A DNA stretch of 64,000 nucleotides. Origin: an uncultured Bacteroidales bacterium (lineage in GTDB: Bacteria > Bacteroidota > Bacteroidia > Bacteroidales > Bacteroidaceae). The position numbers were made by a program, and so were the translations under genes. Below the pieces are notes generated by a model. The model was not told where the DNA came from. It searched no databases and saw nothing but the letters and a program-made list of their open reading frames with translations. The stretch covers positions 4,684 to 68,683 of the forward strand of contig CACXXT010000021.1 in the NCBI GenBank assembly GCA_902771725.1, read 5' to 3'. Numbering within the stretch: the stretch's first letter is position 1; the number at the start of each line of letters is the position of its first letter. Below are positions 25,301 to 46,719 of the stretch, piece after piece.

Positions 25301-26130
25301 GGAAGTCCTCGGCCGGTTCAGTTCCTGGCGGTTCGTCCGCCAAGTCCGCCCCCCACGCAGCCATCATCCGCGAGAAAGGCACTAATGGTGAGCGCGAAAT
25401 GGCCTACTGCCTATACCTTGCCGGTTTCGAGGTGAAGGATGTCATGATGACCGACCTCATCACCGGCCGCGAGACCCTGGATGACATCCAGATGATCGTC
25501 TTCTGCGGCGGTTTCTCGAACTCCGACGTACTCGGCTCTGCCAAGGGCTGGGCGGGCGCCTTCCTCTATAATCCCAAGGCCAAGGCTGCCCTCGACCGCT
25601 TCTATGCACGTCCCGACACGCTCTCGCTCGGCATCTGTAATGGTTGCCAGCTGATGGTGGAACTGAACCTGCTCGGCCTGACCGGTGAGGAGAAGATGAA
25701 GCACAACGACAGCCACAAGTTCGAGTCCGCTTACCTCGGCCTGACGATACCCGAGAACAAGAGTGTCCTCTTCGGCTCCCTTTCCGGCAGCAAGCTCGGT
25801 ATCTGGGTTGCCCACGGCGAAGGCAAGTTCCACCTGCCGCAGCCCGAGAGCGCCTACAACGTCGTTGCCAAGTACTGCTACGACCAATATCCTGCCAACC
25901 CCAACGGTTCGGACTACTCCGTAGCCGGTCTCTGCTCCGCCGACGGTCGCCATCTGGCCATGATGCCTCACCTCGAACGTGCCATCTTCCCCTGGCAGTG
26001 CGCCTGGTACCCCGCCGACCGCCGTATGGATGAAGTCACACCGTGGATTGAAGCTTTCGTGAATGCACGTAAATGGTGCGAGAAGGCCAGCCTCTCCCCC
26101 AACCCCTCCCCTGTTAGGGAGGGGAGATAA
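22351..26130 (+). CDS. purL: Phosphoribosylformylglycinamidine synthase, large form
   Basis: 1259-residue single-chain FGAM synthase for step 4 of purine synthesis: FGAR + ATP + glutamine to FGAM. The FGAM-synthase domains span about 150-950 (motifs INSEHCRHKIFGG, KAETHNFPTTVEPFNGASTGTGGEIRD, HDHGSAGHVNC, DISAGGLITCLLEM). The C-terminal class I glutaminase domain (about 990-1250) has its nucleophile in LGICNGCQLMVEL, with His/Glu later (NPNGSDYSVAGLC). After the natural end near VNARKWCEK, the last residues, ASLSPNPSPVREGR, and the stop are supplied by a palindromic repeat (26092-26126). It is followed by the first chromate transporter gene. Confidence 0.96.
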   Translation: MAIFFFRTSGLSVIATQVDHQLTQDEIDKLCWLYDGATLIDTPTLEGNFVGPRREMITPWSTNAVEITQNMALCGISRIEEYFGVDSDEPDYDPMLQRLYKGLDQDIFTVNIQPAPIQIIENLEEYNEQEGLALSPEEIEYLHKVEGQLGRKLTDSEVFGFAQINSEHCRHKIFGGTFIIDGQEMPSSLFAMIKKTTQENPHHIISAYKDNVAFAEGPVVEQFAPADQSTSDYFIIKNIESVISIKAETHNFPTTVEPFNGASTGTGGEIRDRMGGGTGSWPIAGTAVYMTSYPRNDESREWERLLPVRQWLYQTPEQILIKASNGASDFGNKFGQPLITGSVLTFEHEENGEQYGYDKVIMLAGGVGYGTKRDCLKGTPQKGNKIVVVGGDNYRIGLGGGSVSSVDTGRYSSGIELNAVQRANPEMQKRAYNLVRALCEEEVNPVVSIHDHGSAGHVNCLSELVEECGGLIDMTKLPIGDPTLSSKEIIANESQERMGLLIQEEHLDHVRAIAERERAPLYVVGETTGDAHFAFEQGDGVRPFDLDVAQMFGHSPKTVMVDETVERHYASVESIELKDEGMLNRALSKVLSLEAVACKDWLTNKVDRSVTGKVARQQCQGQIQLPLSDCGVVALDYRGRKGIATALGHAPQAGLADPAAGSVLSVAESLTNLVWAPLSEGLDSVSLSANWMWPCRSQKGEDARLYRAVEALSDFCCALEINVPTGKDSLSMTQKYPDGTKVIAPGTVIVSSGGEVSDIRKVVSPVLADEPKSALYHIDFSFDELRLGGSAFAQAHGKVGSDVPTCTNPEYFRDAFDAVQECVRKGLLLAGHDISAGGLITCLLEMCFANTHGGMKINLVNFETNDILKILFAENPGVVVQVSTKNEAEFKELMDEAGVGYIYIGTPARERNLRIRKGDFEETLDIDQLRDIWYRPSYLLDRRQSMNGCAEARFENYKHQPLQIQLPKHFTGKLSQYSLNPDRWKSSAGSVPGGSSAKSAPHAAIIREKGTNGEREMAYCLYLAGFEVKDVMMTDLITGRETLDDIQMIVFCGGFSNSDVLGSAKGWAGAFLYNPKAKAALDRFYARPDTLSLGICNGCQLMVELNLLGLTGEEKMKHNDSHKFESAYLGLTIPENKSVLFGSLSGSKLGIWVAHGEGKFHLPQPESAYNVVAKYCYDQYPANPNGSDYSVAGLCSADGRHLAMMPHLERAIFPWQCAWYPADRRMDEVTPWIEAFVNARKWCEKASLSPNPSPVREGR
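26092..26126 (+). repeat. Palindromic repeat, left copy of the purL-chrA pair
   Basis: CTCTCCCCCAACC followed by CCTCCCCTGTTAGGGAGGGG. It is a diverged copy of the family found at 40969, 41480, 55915 and 56290. It contains a hairpin CTCCC(TGTTA)GGGAG and encodes the C-terminus of PurL in frame. Confidence 0.8.
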
Positions 26131-26145
26131 GCAATCTTCCTACGA

Positions 26146-26781
26146 ATGAATCCTCCATCAAATTATCAAGAAACACACTATCAATCCACCCCTCTCCCTA
26201 ACAGGGGAGGGGTCGGAGGAGGGGCTTCTCTCTTTAAGACCTTCTTCCACATTGGCCTCTTCACTATCGGCGGAGGCTATGCCATGATACCGCTGATAGA
26301 GGCCAAGGTGGTAGATGAGAAGCAGTGGATAAGCCGCGAGGAACTGATGGATCTGATGGCAGTGGCGCAATCCTGTCCGGGTGTCTTTGCCGTGAACATC
26401 GCCATCTTCATCGGCTACAAGATTCGCGGTACCTGGGGCGCTCTCATGTCTACCATCGGATGCATTCTCCCCTCGTTCCTCATCATTCTTGCCATCGCCC
26501 TCTTCTTCCGCCAGTTCCAGGACAACCCTTGGGTGGCTCGCGCCTTCCGCGGTATCCGTCCCTGCGTGGTAGCCCTCATTGCTGCTCCAACCTTCAAGAT
26601 GGCCAAGACGGCCAAAATCGGGTGGACTAATATATGGATTCCAGTCCTCAGCGCTTTTCTCATCTGGATGTTCGGTGTCTCTCCCATCTGGGTCATCGTC
26701 GCTGCGGGTCTTGGCGGATACCTCTATGGTCTCTTTGTCGAGACACCCGCTCAAGACTCTAAACCAGACTCTGAACTCTAA
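26146..26781 (+). CDS. chrA: Chromate transporter, N-terminal-type half protein
   Basis: 211-residue short-chain member of the CHR (chromate ion transporter) family. The typical domain starts only at about residue 29: SLFKTFFHIGLFTIGGGYAMIPLIEAKVV, then AVAQSCPGVFAVNIAIFIGY with the family's PGP-like PGV, and five or six membrane segments. The first 28 residues are an odd leader; residues 15-28 (STPLPNRGGVGGGA) are translated from a palindromic repeat (26188-26225). Paired with the second half-size transporter at 26864; short CHR proteins are known to work as such pairs. Actual substrate in this organism is uncertain. Confidence 0.85.
   Translation: MNPPSNYQETHYQSTPLPNRGGVGGGASLFKTFFHIGLFTIGGGYAMIPLIEAKVVDEKQWISREELMDLMAVAQSCPGVFAVNIAIFIGYKIRGTWGALMSTIGCILPSFLIILAIALFFRQFQDNPWVARAFRGIRPCVVALIAAPTFKMAKTAKIGWTNIWIPVLSAFLIWMFGVSPIWVIVAAGLGGYLYGLFVETPAQDSKPDSEL
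26188..26225 (-). repeat. Palindromic repeat, right copy of the purL-chrA pair
   Basis: Inverted relative to the copy at 26092-26126: contains CCCTCTCCCTAACAGGGGAG then GGGTCGGAGGAGGGG. In frame with the ChrA leader. Confidence 0.8.
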
Positions 26782-38875: not shown

Positions 38876-39090
38876 ATACATTTTTAGCGAACTGCAATAA
38901 AAAATGTAAAAAAATCCATAATCCGAGGCAGAAATAAAGCAAATTGCATCTTTCGCACATCAAAATGGCACGAATTTTGGGGATTTGTGCAGCATTTTGT
39001 TGACCAATCAACACGATAATCGCCCCCCGCAGGTCAGCTGCGACTACACCTTATTAATTAATCGCGCGCGCGAGCCAAAGACAAAAAAAA

Positions 39091-39253
39091 TGCAGCAGGC
39101 TGGATAGCCCGATGCAGCAGGCTGGATAGCCCGATGCAGCAGGCTGGATGGTCCGATGCAGCAGGCTGGATGGCCCGATGCAGCAGGCTGGATAGCCCGA
39201 TGCAGCAGGCTGGATAGCCCGATGCAGCAGGCTGGATAGCCCGATGCAGCAGG
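39091..39253. repeat. 22-bp tandem repeat, 7.4 copies
   Basis: Unit TGCAGCAGGCTGGATAGCCC plus GA. Copies start at 39091, 39113, 39135, 39157, 39179, 39201 and 39223, with a partial copy at 39245-39253. Copies 3 and 4 carry single changes (ATGGTCC and ATGGCCC); the others are identical. It ends 24 bp before the sigma factor stop codon. Confidence 0.95.
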
Positions 39254-40019: not shown

Positions 40020-41030
40020 TTAACATTCTTTCAGGATTGCGCCCTCTAAATGAGCTCCACGGAGGAAATCGGCGGCTGGCATACGTCGTTTTCCTGCCAA
40101 TTGGATGTCCGTCAGGCGGAGATAGCCGTTGCTGAGGCGGACAACGAGGGGATTTCCGGGTTCGGCGGGCACATCTTTCTCGGCGAAAAAGACCTTGAGT
40201 TGTGTCTCGCGACCGTCGGCGGTGCAGAGGGTGGTCCATGCGCCCGGGTAGGGTGAGAGTCCACGGATGAAGTCGTAGGCGGACTTCACGGTGTGCTGGC
40301 TCCAGCGAATCTGGGTGTTTTCCTTGAAGAGCTTGGGAGCGGGGCGGAGAGCAGACTCGGCGGAAGAACCGCCGAGCACAGTGCTCTGGTCCACGGGGGC
40401 GATGTTGCCAGAGGCGATATCGTCCACGGTGCGGAGGACGAGGTCAGCGCCGAGGTACATCAGGCGGTCGTAGACATCACCGACGGTATCGGTATCTGCA
40501 ATGGGCGAAGGGACACGATGAATGATGCGCCCTGTGTCGATATCGTGGTCGAGGAAGAAGGTGGTGACGCCCGTCTCCGTCTCACCATTAATGACGGCCC
40601 AATTGATGGGAGCTGCTCCGCGGTACTGAGGCAGCAGGGCTGCGTGGAGGTTGAAGGTGCCCAAGGGCGGCATGGCCCAAACGACCTCGGGCAACATACG
40701 GAAGGCGACGACTATCTGGAGGTCGGCCTCGTAGCTGCGCAGTTCCTCGAGGAACGCCTCGTCCTTCAGCTTCTCGGGTTGCAGAACAGGAATGCCCTTC
40801 GAGACAGCGTACTCCTTGACGGGCGAAGCCTGCAGGGTGTCGTGGTGGCGTCCCACCGGTTTATCTGGCATAGTGACAACTGCCACCACATTATAGTTGT
40901 TCTCAACGAGTTTGCGGAGGGATTCAACGGCAAACTCGGGGGTGCCCATGAAGACGATTTTCATCGAAGACTCTCCCCCCGCCCTCCCTGTTAGGGAGGG
41001 AGCAGAATGATTTTGACTGGATGTATTCAT
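40020..41030 (-). CDS. fmt: Methionyl-tRNA formyltransferase with repeat-encoded leader
   Basis: Formylates initiator Met-tRNA using 10-formyl-THF. The normal protein starts at the internal ATG at 40964 (MKIVFMGTPEFAVESL), which gives about 314 residues; catalytic region NLHAALLPQYRGAAPINWAVINGETETGVT with the expected Asn-His and Asp (DHDIDTGRI), and the C-terminal RNA-binding domain after about 210. The frame is open 22 codons further upstream to an ATG at 41030, which overlaps the DUF559 stop as ATGA. Those 22 residues include [13 protein letters not shown] from the palindromic repeat at 40969-41003. Either start could be used; the coupled one is annotated. Confidence 0.92.
   Translation of the reverse strand: MNTSSQNHSAPSLTGRAGGESSMKIVFMGTPEFAVESLRKLVENNYNVVAVVTMPDKPVGRHHDTLQASPVKEYAVSKGIPVLQPEKLKDEAFLEELRSYEADLQIVVAFRMLPEVVWAMPPLGTFNLHAALLPQYRGAAPINWAVINGETETGVTTFFLDHDIDTGRIIHRVPSPIADTDTVGDVYDRLMYLGADLVLRTVDDIASGNIAPVDQSTVLGGSSAESALRPAPKLFKENTQIRWSQHTVKSAYDFIRGLSPYPGAWTTLCTADGRETQLKVFFAEKDVPAEPGNPLVVRLSNGYLRLTDIQLAGKRRMPAADFLRGAHLEGAILKEC
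40969..41003 (+). repeat. 35-bp palindromic repeat, fmt-side copy
   Basis: GACTCTCCCCCCGCC then CTCCCTGTTAGGGAGGGAGC. The second half folds into a hairpin GCTCCCTCCCT/AGGGAGGGAGC-type stem. It is the exact reverse complement of 41480-41514 and identical to 55915-55949. Confidence 0.95.
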
Positions 41031-41392
41031 TTAAAATATGATTCTATTTGAGTTAAAACATTATCAATATCGTATAAGACTTCCTCGTTTGTAAAACGCA
41101 TGACCTGGAAACCCAAGTTTTCCAAATCTCGCTCACGGATAGCATCATCTTCCTGCTGCTGCCTTTCAGAATGATAACCTCCATCCACCTCTATGACAAG
41201 CCCCTCGCGTTGCGAGACGAAGTCCACAATGTAATCGCCAATGATATGTTGGCGGTTGAAACGAGTTCCTACTTCTAACTTCCGCAGTTCTTCCCACAAG
41301 AGAGACTCCGCAAGCGTCATGTTACGCCTGTTCTCCCTTGCAAATTCCCTTAGGAGCATATATCTATCCGGCGAAGCTGTTCTATAATCCAT
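41027..41392 (-). CDS. DUF559 endonuclease-fold protein
   Basis: 121 residues of the DUF559 family (PF04480), a PD-(D/E)xK-type fold related to very-short-patch repair (Vsr) endonucleases. Family signatures: MTLAESLLWEELRKL (25-39), FNRQHIIGDYIVDFVS (45-60) and LVIEVDGGYH (65-74), giving the expected catalytic set Asp57, Glu68 and Asp70 with His74; then LENLGFQVMRFTNEEV. So it looks catalytically intact. Its stop overlaps the upstream fmt start. It is framed by the 35-bp inverted repeats and has its own TACCTTTG. A role in spreading those repeats is an inference; other roles, such as DNA repair or phage defence, are possible. Confidence 0.88.
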   Translation of the reverse strand: MDYRTASPDRYMLLREFARENRRNMTLAESLLWEELRKLEVGTRFNRQHIIGDYIVDFVSQREGLVIEVDGGYHSERQQQEDDAIRERDLENLGFQVMRFTNEEVLYDIDNVLTQIESYFK

Positions 41393-41468
41393 AGGAAAGT
41401 AATCTATTTGAAATGCTGTTCTATACTCTATCTTTTTTGACTACTATTTTTGAAACATATTCTGCGTT

Positions 41469-41476
41469 CAAAGGTA
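41469..41476 (-). promoter_or_regulatory. -7 box of the DUF559-fmt unit
   Basis: TACCTTTG on the minus strand, three bases inside the inner edge of the repeat copy at 41480-41514; the -33 region would fall inside the repeat (near its TGTTA). Confidence 0.55.
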
Positions 41477-41479
41477 ATC

Positions 41480-41514
41480 GCTCCCTCCCTAACAGGGAGG
41501 GCGGGGGGAGAGTC
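41480..41514 (-). repeat. 35-bp palindromic repeat, clcN-side copy
   Basis: Exact reverse complement of 40969-41003; its outer end touches the TAG stop of clcN (41515-41517). Confidence 0.95.
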
Positions 41515-43317
41515 CTATTCATCACTCAAGTCTGCCATCATCTGCCTGTACAGTGCAAAGACGTGGCTGCGACGGATGAATCCGATGAAGGTGCCCTGAT
41601 CGTCTACTACGGGAAGAGTCCAGGCAGAGGTGCGGTCGAAGGCAGCCATGACGATGTCCATAGGATCACCGACTTTTAAGCGGGCAGCGTAGCGGGACAT
41701 GAGGTCACGTACGTGAAGGGTATGATAGAGCTCCGTGCGGAACATGACATGCCGCACGCGGTCGAGAACGAGCACTCCGAGGAGATGCTGCTGGTCATCT
41801 ACCACAGGGAAGATATCGCGTTCGGAAGATGAGATCTGACGGACAATCTCGCCGAGGTCGTCGTCGGGATGCAGGTGCTCCTCATAGCGCTGGATGACGG
41901 AGTCCATAGACATCAGCGTGAGCACGGCCTGATCCTTATTGTGGGTGACGAGCTCTCCCTTGCGAGCCAGACGCATGGTGTAGATACTGTGGGGCTCGAA
42001 GATGATGATGGTCAGGTAGGCACAGACAGCCACAATCATCAGGGGGAGGAAGAGGCCGTAGCCGCCGGTGAGCTCGGCGATGAGGAAGATACCGGTCAGC
42101 GGGGCATGCATGACTCCGCTCATCAGTCCTGCCATTCCCAATAGGGAGAAATTGCTCTCGGGGACGTTCGGCAGATTGAACAGCTGGAAGTCAAACGCCG
42201 AAAGCAGGTTCCACAGCGAGGCGAAAAGGAAACCGGAGACGCAACCCAGGAAGAGCGACGGCGCAAAGGTACCGCCGCAACCGCCGCCGCTGTTGGTCGC
42301 CGTAGTGGCAAAGACCTTGAAGACAATGATGCCGGCGAGGTAGAGGAGCAGCAGGTGGGGAGTGGCGTAGAAGAAGGAGCCCTCGAGCACCTGGTTCCAG
42401 TCGGCTTGCGTCTGACCGTTGAGGAGAAGGCGTATCATGCCATAGCCCTCACCATAGAGCGAGGGGAAGAGGAAGATGAGCACACTGAGAATGGGACTGG
42501 CGATGAGGAATCGCCTCCAAGGGGAGCCGAGACGCCGGAACTGGTCTTCGAGCCAGTTCATGACGCGGGTGAAGTAGAGCGAGACAAGTCCGCAGAACAC
42601 ACCTAATAATATATACGCGGGCACGCGTTCGATGGCAAAAGCGTTGATGAGGTGGAACTCGAAGAGGTTACCCGTGCCGGAAATGGCAAAGGTGACGGCA
42701 GCTGCAGTGACGCACGAAACGAGCAACGGCAGCAGGCTGCCAAGGGTGAAGTCTATCATCAGGACCTCAAGGGTGAAGACGAGGCCCGCGATAGGTGCCT
42801 TGAAAATACCGCTGACGGCCCCTGCGGCTCCACAGCCCACCAGGAGCATCATCTTCTTGGAATCCAGTTGGAAGACTTGTCCCAAAGTACTGCCAATGGC
42901 AGAACCTGTGAGTACAATAGGTGCTTCGGCACCGACACTACCTCCGAATCCGATGGTGATGCCCGATGCCACGACGGAAGACCAGGTATTATGGGGCTTG
43001 ATGCGACTTTGCTTGCGGGCTATAGCATATAGGATCTTCGTGATGCCATGCCCAATGTCATCACGGACGACATAGCGCACGAAGAGTCCGGTGAGCAGGA
43101 TGCCGACGACAGGATAGACGAGGTATGGCCAGTTGGCCCCGGTGATAGAGAAATGCTGTGTCAGCAAGTCCTCGATGGCTCCAATAAGCCACTTCAGCAG
43201 GAGGCCGGCCAAGGCGGTGAGGACACCGATGAAGAGGGCCAGCAGAAGCATAAACTGCTTGTCCGTGATATGGCGGGAGCGCCAGAGGAGAATGCTATCG
43301 AAGGAGGGTGCTTTCAT
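41515..43317 (-). CDS. clcN: ClC-family chloride channel/antiporter with CBS domains
   Basis: 600 residues. ClC membrane core (about 20-440) with the signature blocks GFGGSVGAEAPIVLTGSAIG (the gating Glu is kept as the E of GAEAP), GCGAAGAVSGIFKAPIAGLVF and NSGGGCGGTFAPSLFLG. A tandem CBS pair at about 468-595 (DLGEIVRQISSSERDIFPVVDD and DPMDIVMAAFDRTSAWTLPVVDD) probably senses a nucleotide. It follows tsaC by 84 nt. The stop codon lies directly against the DUF559 element. clcN is a label by family; chloride versus proton exchange cannot be settled here. Confidence 0.9.
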   Translation of the reverse strand: MKAPSFDSILLWRSRHITDKQFMLLLALFIGVLTALAGLLLKWLIGAIEDLLTQHFSITGANWPYLVYPVVGILLTGLFVRYVVRDDIGHGITKILYAIARKQSRIKPHNTWSSVVASGITIGFGGSVGAEAPIVLTGSAIGSTLGQVFQLDSKKMMLLVGCGAAGAVSGIFKAPIAGLVFTLEVLMIDFTLGSLLPLLVSCVTAAAVTFAISGTGNLFEFHLINAFAIERVPAYILLGVFCGLVSLYFTRVMNWLEDQFRRLGSPWRRFLIASPILSVLIFLFPSLYGEGYGMIRLLLNGQTQADWNQVLEGSFFYATPHLLLLYLAGIIVFKVFATTATNSGGGCGGTFAPSLFLGCVSGFLFASLWNLLSAFDFQLFNLPNVPESNFSLLGMAGLMSGVMHAPLTGIFLIAELTGGYGLFLPLMIVAVCAYLTIIIFEPHSIYTMRLARKGELVTHNKDQAVLTLMSMDSVIQRYEEHLHPDDDLGEIVRQISSSERDIFPVVDDQQHLLGVLVLDRVRHVMFRTELYHTLHVRDLMSRYAARLKVGDPMDIVMAAFDRTSAWTLPVVDDQGTFIGFIRRSHVFALYRQMMADLSDE

Positions 43318-45696: not shown

Positions 45697-46719
45697 CTAT
45701 AGGAGTTCTTGGAGGCAGTCGCGGAGGCTGTCCTCCCAATAGGGGATTTCGAGGTGGTAGGTCTGCTTGATCTTTGTCTTGTCGAGGACACTGTAGTGGG
45801 GACGGGCCGCCGGAGTCGGGTACTCGGTGGTATGGAGCGGGCGTACGTGGCAAGTGGTGATGCCTGCCAGGCGATGAATGGCCTTGGTGAAGTCGTACCA
45901 CGAACAGACACCCTCGTTGGAGAAATGATAAACACCAGGCTGAACGCCCTGCGTGATGGCAGCCATGATGGCAGCAGCCAGGTCTCTGGCGTAAGTGGGT
46001 GTTCCTATTTGGTCAAAGATTACACCGAGCTCGGTTTTCTCGCGGCCCAGGCGTAACATCGTCTTCACGAAGTTATTCCCGAAGCGGCTATAGAGCCAGG
46101 CAGTGCGGATGATGAGGGCCGAGGGATTTGCCGCGAGAACGGCCTGTTCGCCAGCGAGTTTGGTGCGGCCGTAGACGGAGTTGGGACAAGTGGGGAGGTC
46201 CTCGGTGTAGGGGGTGTGGGCGGTGCCGTCGAAGACGTAGTCGGTGGAGATCTGAACCAGCTGACCGCCACGGCCCTGGATGGCTGCGGCAAGGTAGCCG
46301 GGAGCGGTGGCATTCAGGAGGGCTGCCCGGTCTGCATCGGACTCAGCGCGGTCCACTGCGGTGTAGGCGGCACAGTTGACGATGAGGTCTACGGAGTGCT
46401 CCTCCACGAAGGAGAGGACGGCGGCGGAGTCGGTGATGTCCAGGGAACTGACGGCGGACGAACTGACGGCGGACGAACCGCCGTCCACTGAACCCGAGGC
46501 GGGGGAAGGGGAAGAGCCCGAGGCGGGGGAAGGGGAAGAGCCAGGGGCGGGGGAAGGGGAAGAACCAGGGGCGGGGGAAGGGGAAGATGCAGACGCAGCG
46601 GGGACGGGAGCGGGCACTACGTCCGTGAAGAGCCAGAGGTATTCGGGATGAAGCCGGGCTTGCAGCTGCATCTCATTGCCGAGCTGCCCGCAGGCGCCAG
46701 TGACGAGGATTGTTTTCAT
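45697..46719 (-). CDS. rfbD: dTDP-4-dehydrorhamnose reductase with repeat insertion
   Basis: 340 residues; reduces dTDP-4-dehydro-L-rhamnose to dTDP-L-rhamnose for surface polysaccharide. Short-chain reductase fold: TILVTGACGQLGNEM (NADPH loop), DLIVNCAAYTAVDRAESD, ISTDYVFDGT, catalytic YGRTKLAGEQ and the C-terminal RPHYSVLDKTKI. Enzymes of this family are near 285 residues. The extra length is an insertion at about 35-92 made of SPSPAPGS-type repeats followed by SSAVS units, placed after the beta strand LWLFTDV and before LDITDSAAV. It is coded by a minisatellite and should loop out from the enzyme surface. Function is probably kept. Confidence 0.9.
   Translation of the reverse strand: MKTILVTGACGQLGNEMQLQARLHPEYLWLFTDVVPAPVPAASASSPSPAPGSSPSPAPGSSPSPASGSSPSPASGSVDGGSSAVSSSAVSSLDITDSAAVLSFVEEHSVDLIVNCAAYTAVDRAESDADRAALLNATAPGYLAAAIQGRGGQLVQISTDYVFDGTAHTPYTEDLPTCPNSVYGRTKLAGEQAVLAANPSALIIRTAWLYSRFGNNFVKTMLRLGREKTELGVIFDQIGTPTYARDLAAAIMAAITQGVQPGVYHFSNEGVCSWYDFTKAIHRLAGITTCHVRPLHTTEYPTPAARPHYSVLDKTKIKQTYHLEIPYWEDSLRDCLQELL
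46446..46591. repeat. Minisatellite inside rfbD: 24-bp x4 and 15-bp x2
   Basis: Four 24-bp units (46496-46519, 46520-46543, 46544-46567, 46568-46591) built around GCGGGGGAAGGGGAAGA, with changes at two or three positions, plus two 15-bp copies AACTGACGGCGGACG (46446-46460, 46461-46475). All units are multiples of three, so changes in copy number keep the reading frame. Confidence 0.92.

Follow-up and report, generated by a model that had tools for sequence, protein, structure and literature searches.

A unit of about 546 bp, lying between clcN and fmt in the 64,000-nucleotide stretch of an uncultured Bacteroidales genome analysed here (the window), is probably a mobile element bounded by palindromes, with a DUF559 nuclease that moves both the element and its derivatives, much as RAYTs move GTAG REPs, though the enzyme is unrelated. 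What is observed is the unit with its boundaries, its occurrence at more than one site, derivatives of it that arose by deletion, and purifying selection acting on its enzyme. That the REP-to-REP unit is a mobile element is well supported by sequence comparison. The DUF559 protein is likely its mobilising nuclease, a putative role for which we infer catalysis.

The element at the clcN-fmt junction

The first-pass annotation had described a perfect 35-bp inverted repeat, each copy with a hairpin of its own, that encloses only a DUF559 gene, touches the clcN stop codon at one edge and ends 4 nt from the native fmt start at the other, and all of this is borne out. The two arms are reverse complements at 35 of 35 nt (100%), with no mismatch, and each combines a perfect hairpin of an 8-bp stem and a 3-nt loop (40982-41000 and 41483-41501) with an unpaired, asymmetric, C-rich tail (consensus RGACYC..CCCCC), the tail lying outside and the hairpin inside. 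The features of the junction are as follows.

40020-41030, minus strand: fmt with an N-terminal extension through the arm, from ORF reading; its native ATG (40962-40964) lies 4 nt beyond the arm
40969-41003, plus strand: outer arm on the fmt side, composed of the tail GACTCTCCCCCCG, the hairpin CCCTCCCTGTTAGGGAGGG and AGC; homology with elements at unrelated sites begins exactly here
41004-41026, plus strand: subterminal sequence AGAATGATTTTGACTGGATG..., kept at one end of REPINs (18/24)
41027-41392, minus strand: DUF559 (PF04480) nuclease gene of 121 aa, the sole ORF between the arms, from profile match and residues invariant among relatives
41456-41479, minus strand: subterminal sequence GATTACCTTTGAACGCAGAATATG, including a TAnnTTTG promoter-like motif, kept at the other end of REPINs (up to 19/24)
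41480-41514, minus strand: outer arm on the clcN side, the exact reverse complement of the fmt-side arm, from repeat comparison
41515-43317, minus strand: clcN (chloride channel), host flank, from ORF reading; its stop codon directly abuts the arm

The proposed TACCTTTG promoter fared less clearly. The motif is present and promoter-like, but it lies within a subterminal sequence common to REPINs and may therefore serve for recognition, either alongside a promoter function or in its place.

The 121-aa protein scores 114.2 bits against the PF04480 profile (gathering cut-off, 20.6), which makes it a DUF559 member, and otherwise matches only the MTES_1575 and DUF2726 profiles; the profile search found no Y1_Tnp domain, with its HUH motif, in this protein. 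DUF559 stands alone between the arms, where no DDE, HUH, or serine/tyrosine recombinase is found. The intact PD-(D/E)xK site read from the sequence (Asp57, Glu68, Asp70) stood up well, these residues being invariant, together with E29 and H74, in an alignment of 42 sequences. The solved structures nearest to an AlphaFold2 model of the protein (pLDDT 88.9) are NGO0050 of Neisseria (3hrl; Z 13.8) and the catalytic domain of I-Bth0305I (3r3p; Z 11.3), with Vsr at Z 10.3 and TnsA at Z 8.0; as modelled, the protein is an EDxHD/Vsr-fold nuclease. Between DUF559 copies at different sites, dN/dS is 0.03 to 0.17, and the protein is therefore under selection, as expected of a mobilising enzyme.

DUF559 genes are enriched between inverted palindromes

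Enrichment of DUF559 genes between inverted repeat copies, suggested earlier as a check, proved strong. In Bacteroidales, the best inverted match between both flanks reached the threshold score of 40 at 72 of 79 DUF559 loci, versus 8 of 509 control ORFs of the same loci (median scores, 62 versus 18). These loci come almost entirely from Prevotellaceae, Bacteroidaceae, and relatives. Of the eight control hits, at least three are C-rich repeats of this very class, and 7 of the 79 DUF559 loci fall below the threshold. Within the genus, DUF559 lies between inverted palindromes at most loci. Outside Bacteroidota, the comparison covers 23 records of a plasmid collection that includes whole chromosomes and chromids, from cyanobacteria, Deinococcus, and alpha-, beta-, and gammaproteobacteria; here a score of at least 34 was found at 14 of 23 DUF559 loci, compared with 0 of 55 control ORFs. 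Flanking C-rich palindromes stand on both sides at 10 of 23 loci versus 1 of 55 controls. In one sample, DUF559 was present in 78 of 148 Bacteroidota genomes. DUF559 domains occur in other settings too, for instance at the end of large helicases, and these need not be part of palindrome-bounded elements.

Several individual loci may be recorded here. On Deinococcus plasmids (L211, L213, L219), the hpa catabolic operon has a DUF559 gene inserted antisense, at differing points and each time between inverted palindromes; on Sphingomonas plasmids (L257, L258), DUF559 elements separate neighbouring genes in the transhydrogenase and suf operons, with the DUF559 stop one or two bases ahead of the next start. 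In S. meliloti (L215, 2300-3040), the rhizobial DUF559 gene is flanked on both sides by REPINs of about 114 bp, which we take to resemble RIME1 repeats, and an ISRm16 copy adjoins the downstream one. No fresh empty site appeared in the Sinorhizobium megaplasmids, K101, C101, and Ak57 all carrying the element; the extra length of C101 reflects a difference in the stretch compared and was rejected as an insertion. The E. coli gene ycjD, which adjoins fabI (L204, 2489-3080), speaks against the general picture in that repeats of the CCCTCACCCTAACCCTCTCCC class accompany it only on the 3' side. Most E. coli genomes contain a few copies of this class; possibly, ycjD is a domesticated or decaying element.

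Empty sites and mobility of the unit

The proposed insertion into the clcN-fmt gene pair is upheld by related genomes with and without the element, the junction being variable across the genus. Seven genomes carry the element (our own, G114, G016, G076, G010, G075, and G087), and in 12 the junction is empty, with clcN close to fmt (L155, L157-L160, L162, L164, L165, L174, L175, L190, and L191). Two junctions hold a REP pair alone (L156, L161), and one holds a deletion remnant consisting of the 3' end of the DUF559 element and one arm (L163). The missing target duplication, conceded from the outset as a weak point, is indeed missing, both in every occupied/empty pair and at other sites. Filled sites differ from empty ones by up to about 24 changed or replaced target bases, the exact number being uncertain because the flanks are only about 75 to 97% identical in these comparisons between species, each represented by one genome. 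The element has terminal inverted repeats as insertion sequences do, but we rejected a classic insertion sequence given the lack of both a target duplication and a DDE, HUH, or serine/tyrosine recombinase.

The two outcomes that the first-pass annotation had set as refuting its candidate mobile element were both checked, and both checks turned out favourable to it. Besides the empty junctions, further support comes from units that are nearly identical although their sites are unrelated, and from deletion-derived REPINs. Genome G093 contains two DUF559 elements 4.6 kb apart that are 89% identical in unrelated flanks, and an element of another species (G124) is 91% identical to one of them; homology stops at the outer arm edges, RGACTC...GAGTC. 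Likewise, the window element compared with elements at other sites has its homology edge at 40968/40969. REPINs hold both distinct subterminal sequences of the DUF559 element, one per end (18/24 and 19/24 matches, versus 6 to 8 in the opposite-end comparison), which makes them look like internal-deletion derivatives of the element. A clear internal deletion is seen in L149 relative to the L068-type element.

Palindrome populations and the enzyme that tracks them

The window contains the palindrome pattern 21 times, versus 2.3 +/- 1.9 in shuffles, and the genome 42 times, versus 0 for the reversed control; a sample of ~460 kb, made up of the window and 397 kb of the genome, yielded 47 C-rich palindromes versus 4 for a shuffled control. 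Four full DUF559 genes are present in this genome, each flanked by inverted palindromes of a distinct sequence type. Two of these types form REP populations, with 42 copies for the window type and 26 for that of contig C22, and the type of contig C8 has only four copies. Among neighbouring window-type pairs less than 600 bp apart, 11 of 12 face each other as the arms of the DUF559 element do. The genome hence has what marks a RAYT/REPIN system, an enzyme gene flanked by REPs together with a population of inverted REP doublets. Two further features of the window, both given without strand, belong here.

26090-26225: REPIN belonging to a second family (CCCCTCCCCTGTTAGGGAGGGG), whose type also flanks the DUF559 gene of contig C22 in this genome
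55904-56325: REP array of the clcN-fmt element's own family, with no DUF559

The window also contains a 22-bp tandem repeat at 39090-39253 (7.5 copies, 97% identity; ATGCAGCAGGCTGGATAGCCCG), downstream of a sigma-factor-like gene, and a 24-bp tandem repeat at 46496-46587 (3.8 copies; GAGGCGGGGGAAGGGGAAGAGCCA).

Across genomes, the median number of window-type REP copies is 39.5 where a DUF559 at least 74% identical is present, 6 where the best DUF559 is 62 to 73% identical, and 0 where there are only other DUF559 genes or none. The association of REP copy number with the matching DUF559 subtype (Fisher OR 25.6, p 9.5e-11) is inflated by kinship and is partly shared ancestry; a hand count restricted to the closest clade, with an fmt identity of about 80% or above, gives 16:5 versus 3:4, which is not significant. 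Six REP-rich genomes have no close DUF559 match, being incomplete MAGs or cases of loss. Similar DUF559 proteins tend to have similar arms (Mantel r 0.45, p 0.001), for which linkage within one element suffices as an explanation.

Conceivably, the palindromes are moved by another enzyme, such as a Y1 RAYT-type transposase, and DUF559 is cargo caught between REPs. RAYTs do mobilise REPs elsewhere (PMC3116915, PMC8049555), and our genome has a single, weak Y1_Tnp gene (L036, contig C62, 364-1764; 466 aa with a low-complexity insert); among the listed exact copies of the window-type palindrome, none is on that contig. Against a cargo role, REP abundance is not associated with Y1 transposases (OR 1.8, p 0.18), ten REP-rich genomes have no Y1 at all, the GTAG tail is absent, and DUF559, rather than other cargo, recurs between very different palindromes in several phyla. 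We rejected a Y1 RAYT as the mobiliser for lack of that association, and we consider it unlikely that DUF559 is a passenger of any other enzyme.

Arms and whole elements inside host genes

In the window, the ATG of the extended fmt ORF overlaps the DUF559 stop and the frame then reads through the arm; such an arm-encoded N-terminal extension is also found in L163, L167, L168, L171, and L183. Since the native ATG has been lost in several relatives (LRII, LRIV), fmt translation there probably starts inside the mobile element. In many species, different REP types are also inserted in frame in the fmt loop after QLKVFFAEK (L167, L168, L170, L184, L185, L191-L196, L202), and in L184 the REP has expanded to give a peptide repeated in tandem (SSQIDLTPLSSANDAA).

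Across Bacteroidota, whole DUF559 elements are found in frame inside conserved enzymes: in LeuRS at two sites (L284 and L286 share one, L308 has the other), in MetH (L297, L302), in HsdR, again at two sites (L287, L289), in HsdM (L294), and in an epimerase of polysaccharide synthesis (L044). A further one lies in a PglX of the cyanobacterium Pseudanabaena, named from its BREX neighbourhood (L255), and others are fused to guanylate kinase or phosphoglycerate mutase. At the in-frame insertions, Pfam host domains stand on both sides of the element and the arms are translated. An intein identity was rejected, ten in-frame or fused host proteins having no match to a Hint splicing domain at E 1e-5. 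By a strict census, one arm is read through by at least 40 codons at 8 of 97 genus and Prevotella-type loci, so that the in-frame state is a minority there; it is commoner in a phylum-wide sample, in which 12 of the 24 evaluable loci, these being the best-scoring ones, lie in frames of more than 250 aa. The arms do not appear specially stop-free as an adaptation to this state, with 4.47 open frames of 6 versus 4.38 in shuffles. Element arms explain odd N-terminal extensions or loops (PSPSPSREGE-type peptides) in annotated proteins, and whole elements are able to ride in frame within enzymes such as LeuRS and MetH.

Such insertions in conserved genes (LeuRS, MetH, HsdR) are reminiscent of homing elements, and DUF559 might cut a target into which host repair then copies the element, with the arms as short homology or inert translatable spacers. 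The absence of target duplications fits this reading, as does the homing endonuclease I-Bth0305I as the closest characterised fold. However, the insertion sites are numerous and unrelated, and REPINs that lack the gene but share its element's ends have spread too, which argues that the ends themselves matter, and the 121-aa protein lacks an extended DNA-binding domain. Homing of this type thus seems improbable, and an intron homing endonuclease proper was rejected for want of both an intron location and a DNA-binding extension. Far less credible still is a role of the palindromes in RNA or supercoiling (as terminators or mRNA stabilisers), with an ordinary repair or defence nuclease alongside in a recombination-prone place: the arms do fold into hairpins and weak PADLOC matches were found, but Rfam gave no match, and empty sites, unit-exact homology at unrelated sites, and insertions within coding genes all contradict it.

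A proposed mechanism

We favour an element moved by its own nuclease. The arms would be REP-like recognition ends, with the C-rich tail (RGACYC...CCCCC) outside and the hairpin inside, and the DUF559 protein, as the element's own EDxHD/Vsr-fold nuclease, would most likely recognise tail and hairpin and cut at the outer tail edge. Units between two inverted arms, containing either the nuclease gene or, after its internal deletion, a REPIN, could thereby be excised or copied, and the resulting unit might then enter a break at another place, with no target duplication and often at the cost of a few target bases. Arm binding and cutting, strand chemistry, and the copy-or-cut mode are steps that we infer.

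DUF559 is a widespread family of unknown function, and C-rich REPs are found in many bacteria without a known mobiliser; their link gives a testable role to both. Judged by title and abstract, none of 14 open-access papers that name DUF559, or of 4 that name COG2852, connects the family with repeats. On balance, we lean towards DUF559 as a new class of mobilising enzymes, stand-alone Vsr/EDxHD-fold nucleases that would recognise and move palindrome-bounded DNA. They would supply the pan-bacterial CCCTCYCC...GGRGAGGG repeats with their missing partner and, inserted and still translated in essential genes, would form an unspliced counterpart of inteins.

Comparison with known systems

TnsA of Tn7 has a related nuclease fold and acts in transposition, but it works together with the DDE transposase TnsB, whereas no partner gene lies between the arms of the DUF559 element. 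The EDxHD homing endonuclease I-Bth0305I, the nearest characterised relative in fold and sequence, is likewise a mobile-element nuclease, and the modelled DUF559 protein has the fold of its catalytic domain. In contrast, the 121-aa protein is a catalytic domain only, without a NUMOD-like DNA-binding extension, and its element has no intron or intein and is bounded by inverted palindromes.

Rickettsia palindromic elements, as far as the cited part of the source describes them, are palindromes in frame within unrelated coding genes (PMC10969869), similar to what we observe; that part of the source names no partner nuclease, whereas the autonomous DUF559 element carries one and occurs in several phyla. 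CGTC-tagged REPs are also tailed palindromes, mostly head-to-head dimers, that 'apparently lack a dedicated transposase' (PMC3733652). Their stems of 8 to 9 bp, A-T first pairs, and CGTC tail differ from the C-rich stems and other tail found here, and the two are different classes.

The closest parallel in behaviour is with RAYTs and GTAG REPs, for which a nuclease gene between REPs, inverted doublets, and intragenic copies are known (PMC3116915, PMC3733652). Here, too, REPs enclose a dedicated nuclease gene, non-autonomous units spread in the form of inverted REP doublets, and several REP types per genome each have their own enzyme. The RAYT/REP analogy drawn in the first-pass annotation accordingly holds for behaviour and fails for membership: the enzyme is a DUF559 protein with an EDxHD/Vsr-like fold rather than a Y1 HUH protein, and the tail is of the RGACYC type, with no GTAG tetranucleotide at the foot of the REP. 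Moreover, RAYTs have been described as single-copy and vertically inherited (PMC8049555), in contrast to the patchy, one- to eight-copy occurrence of DUF559 at differing sites. If our reading is true, one more nuclease fold joins the enzymes known to move REP-type DNA.
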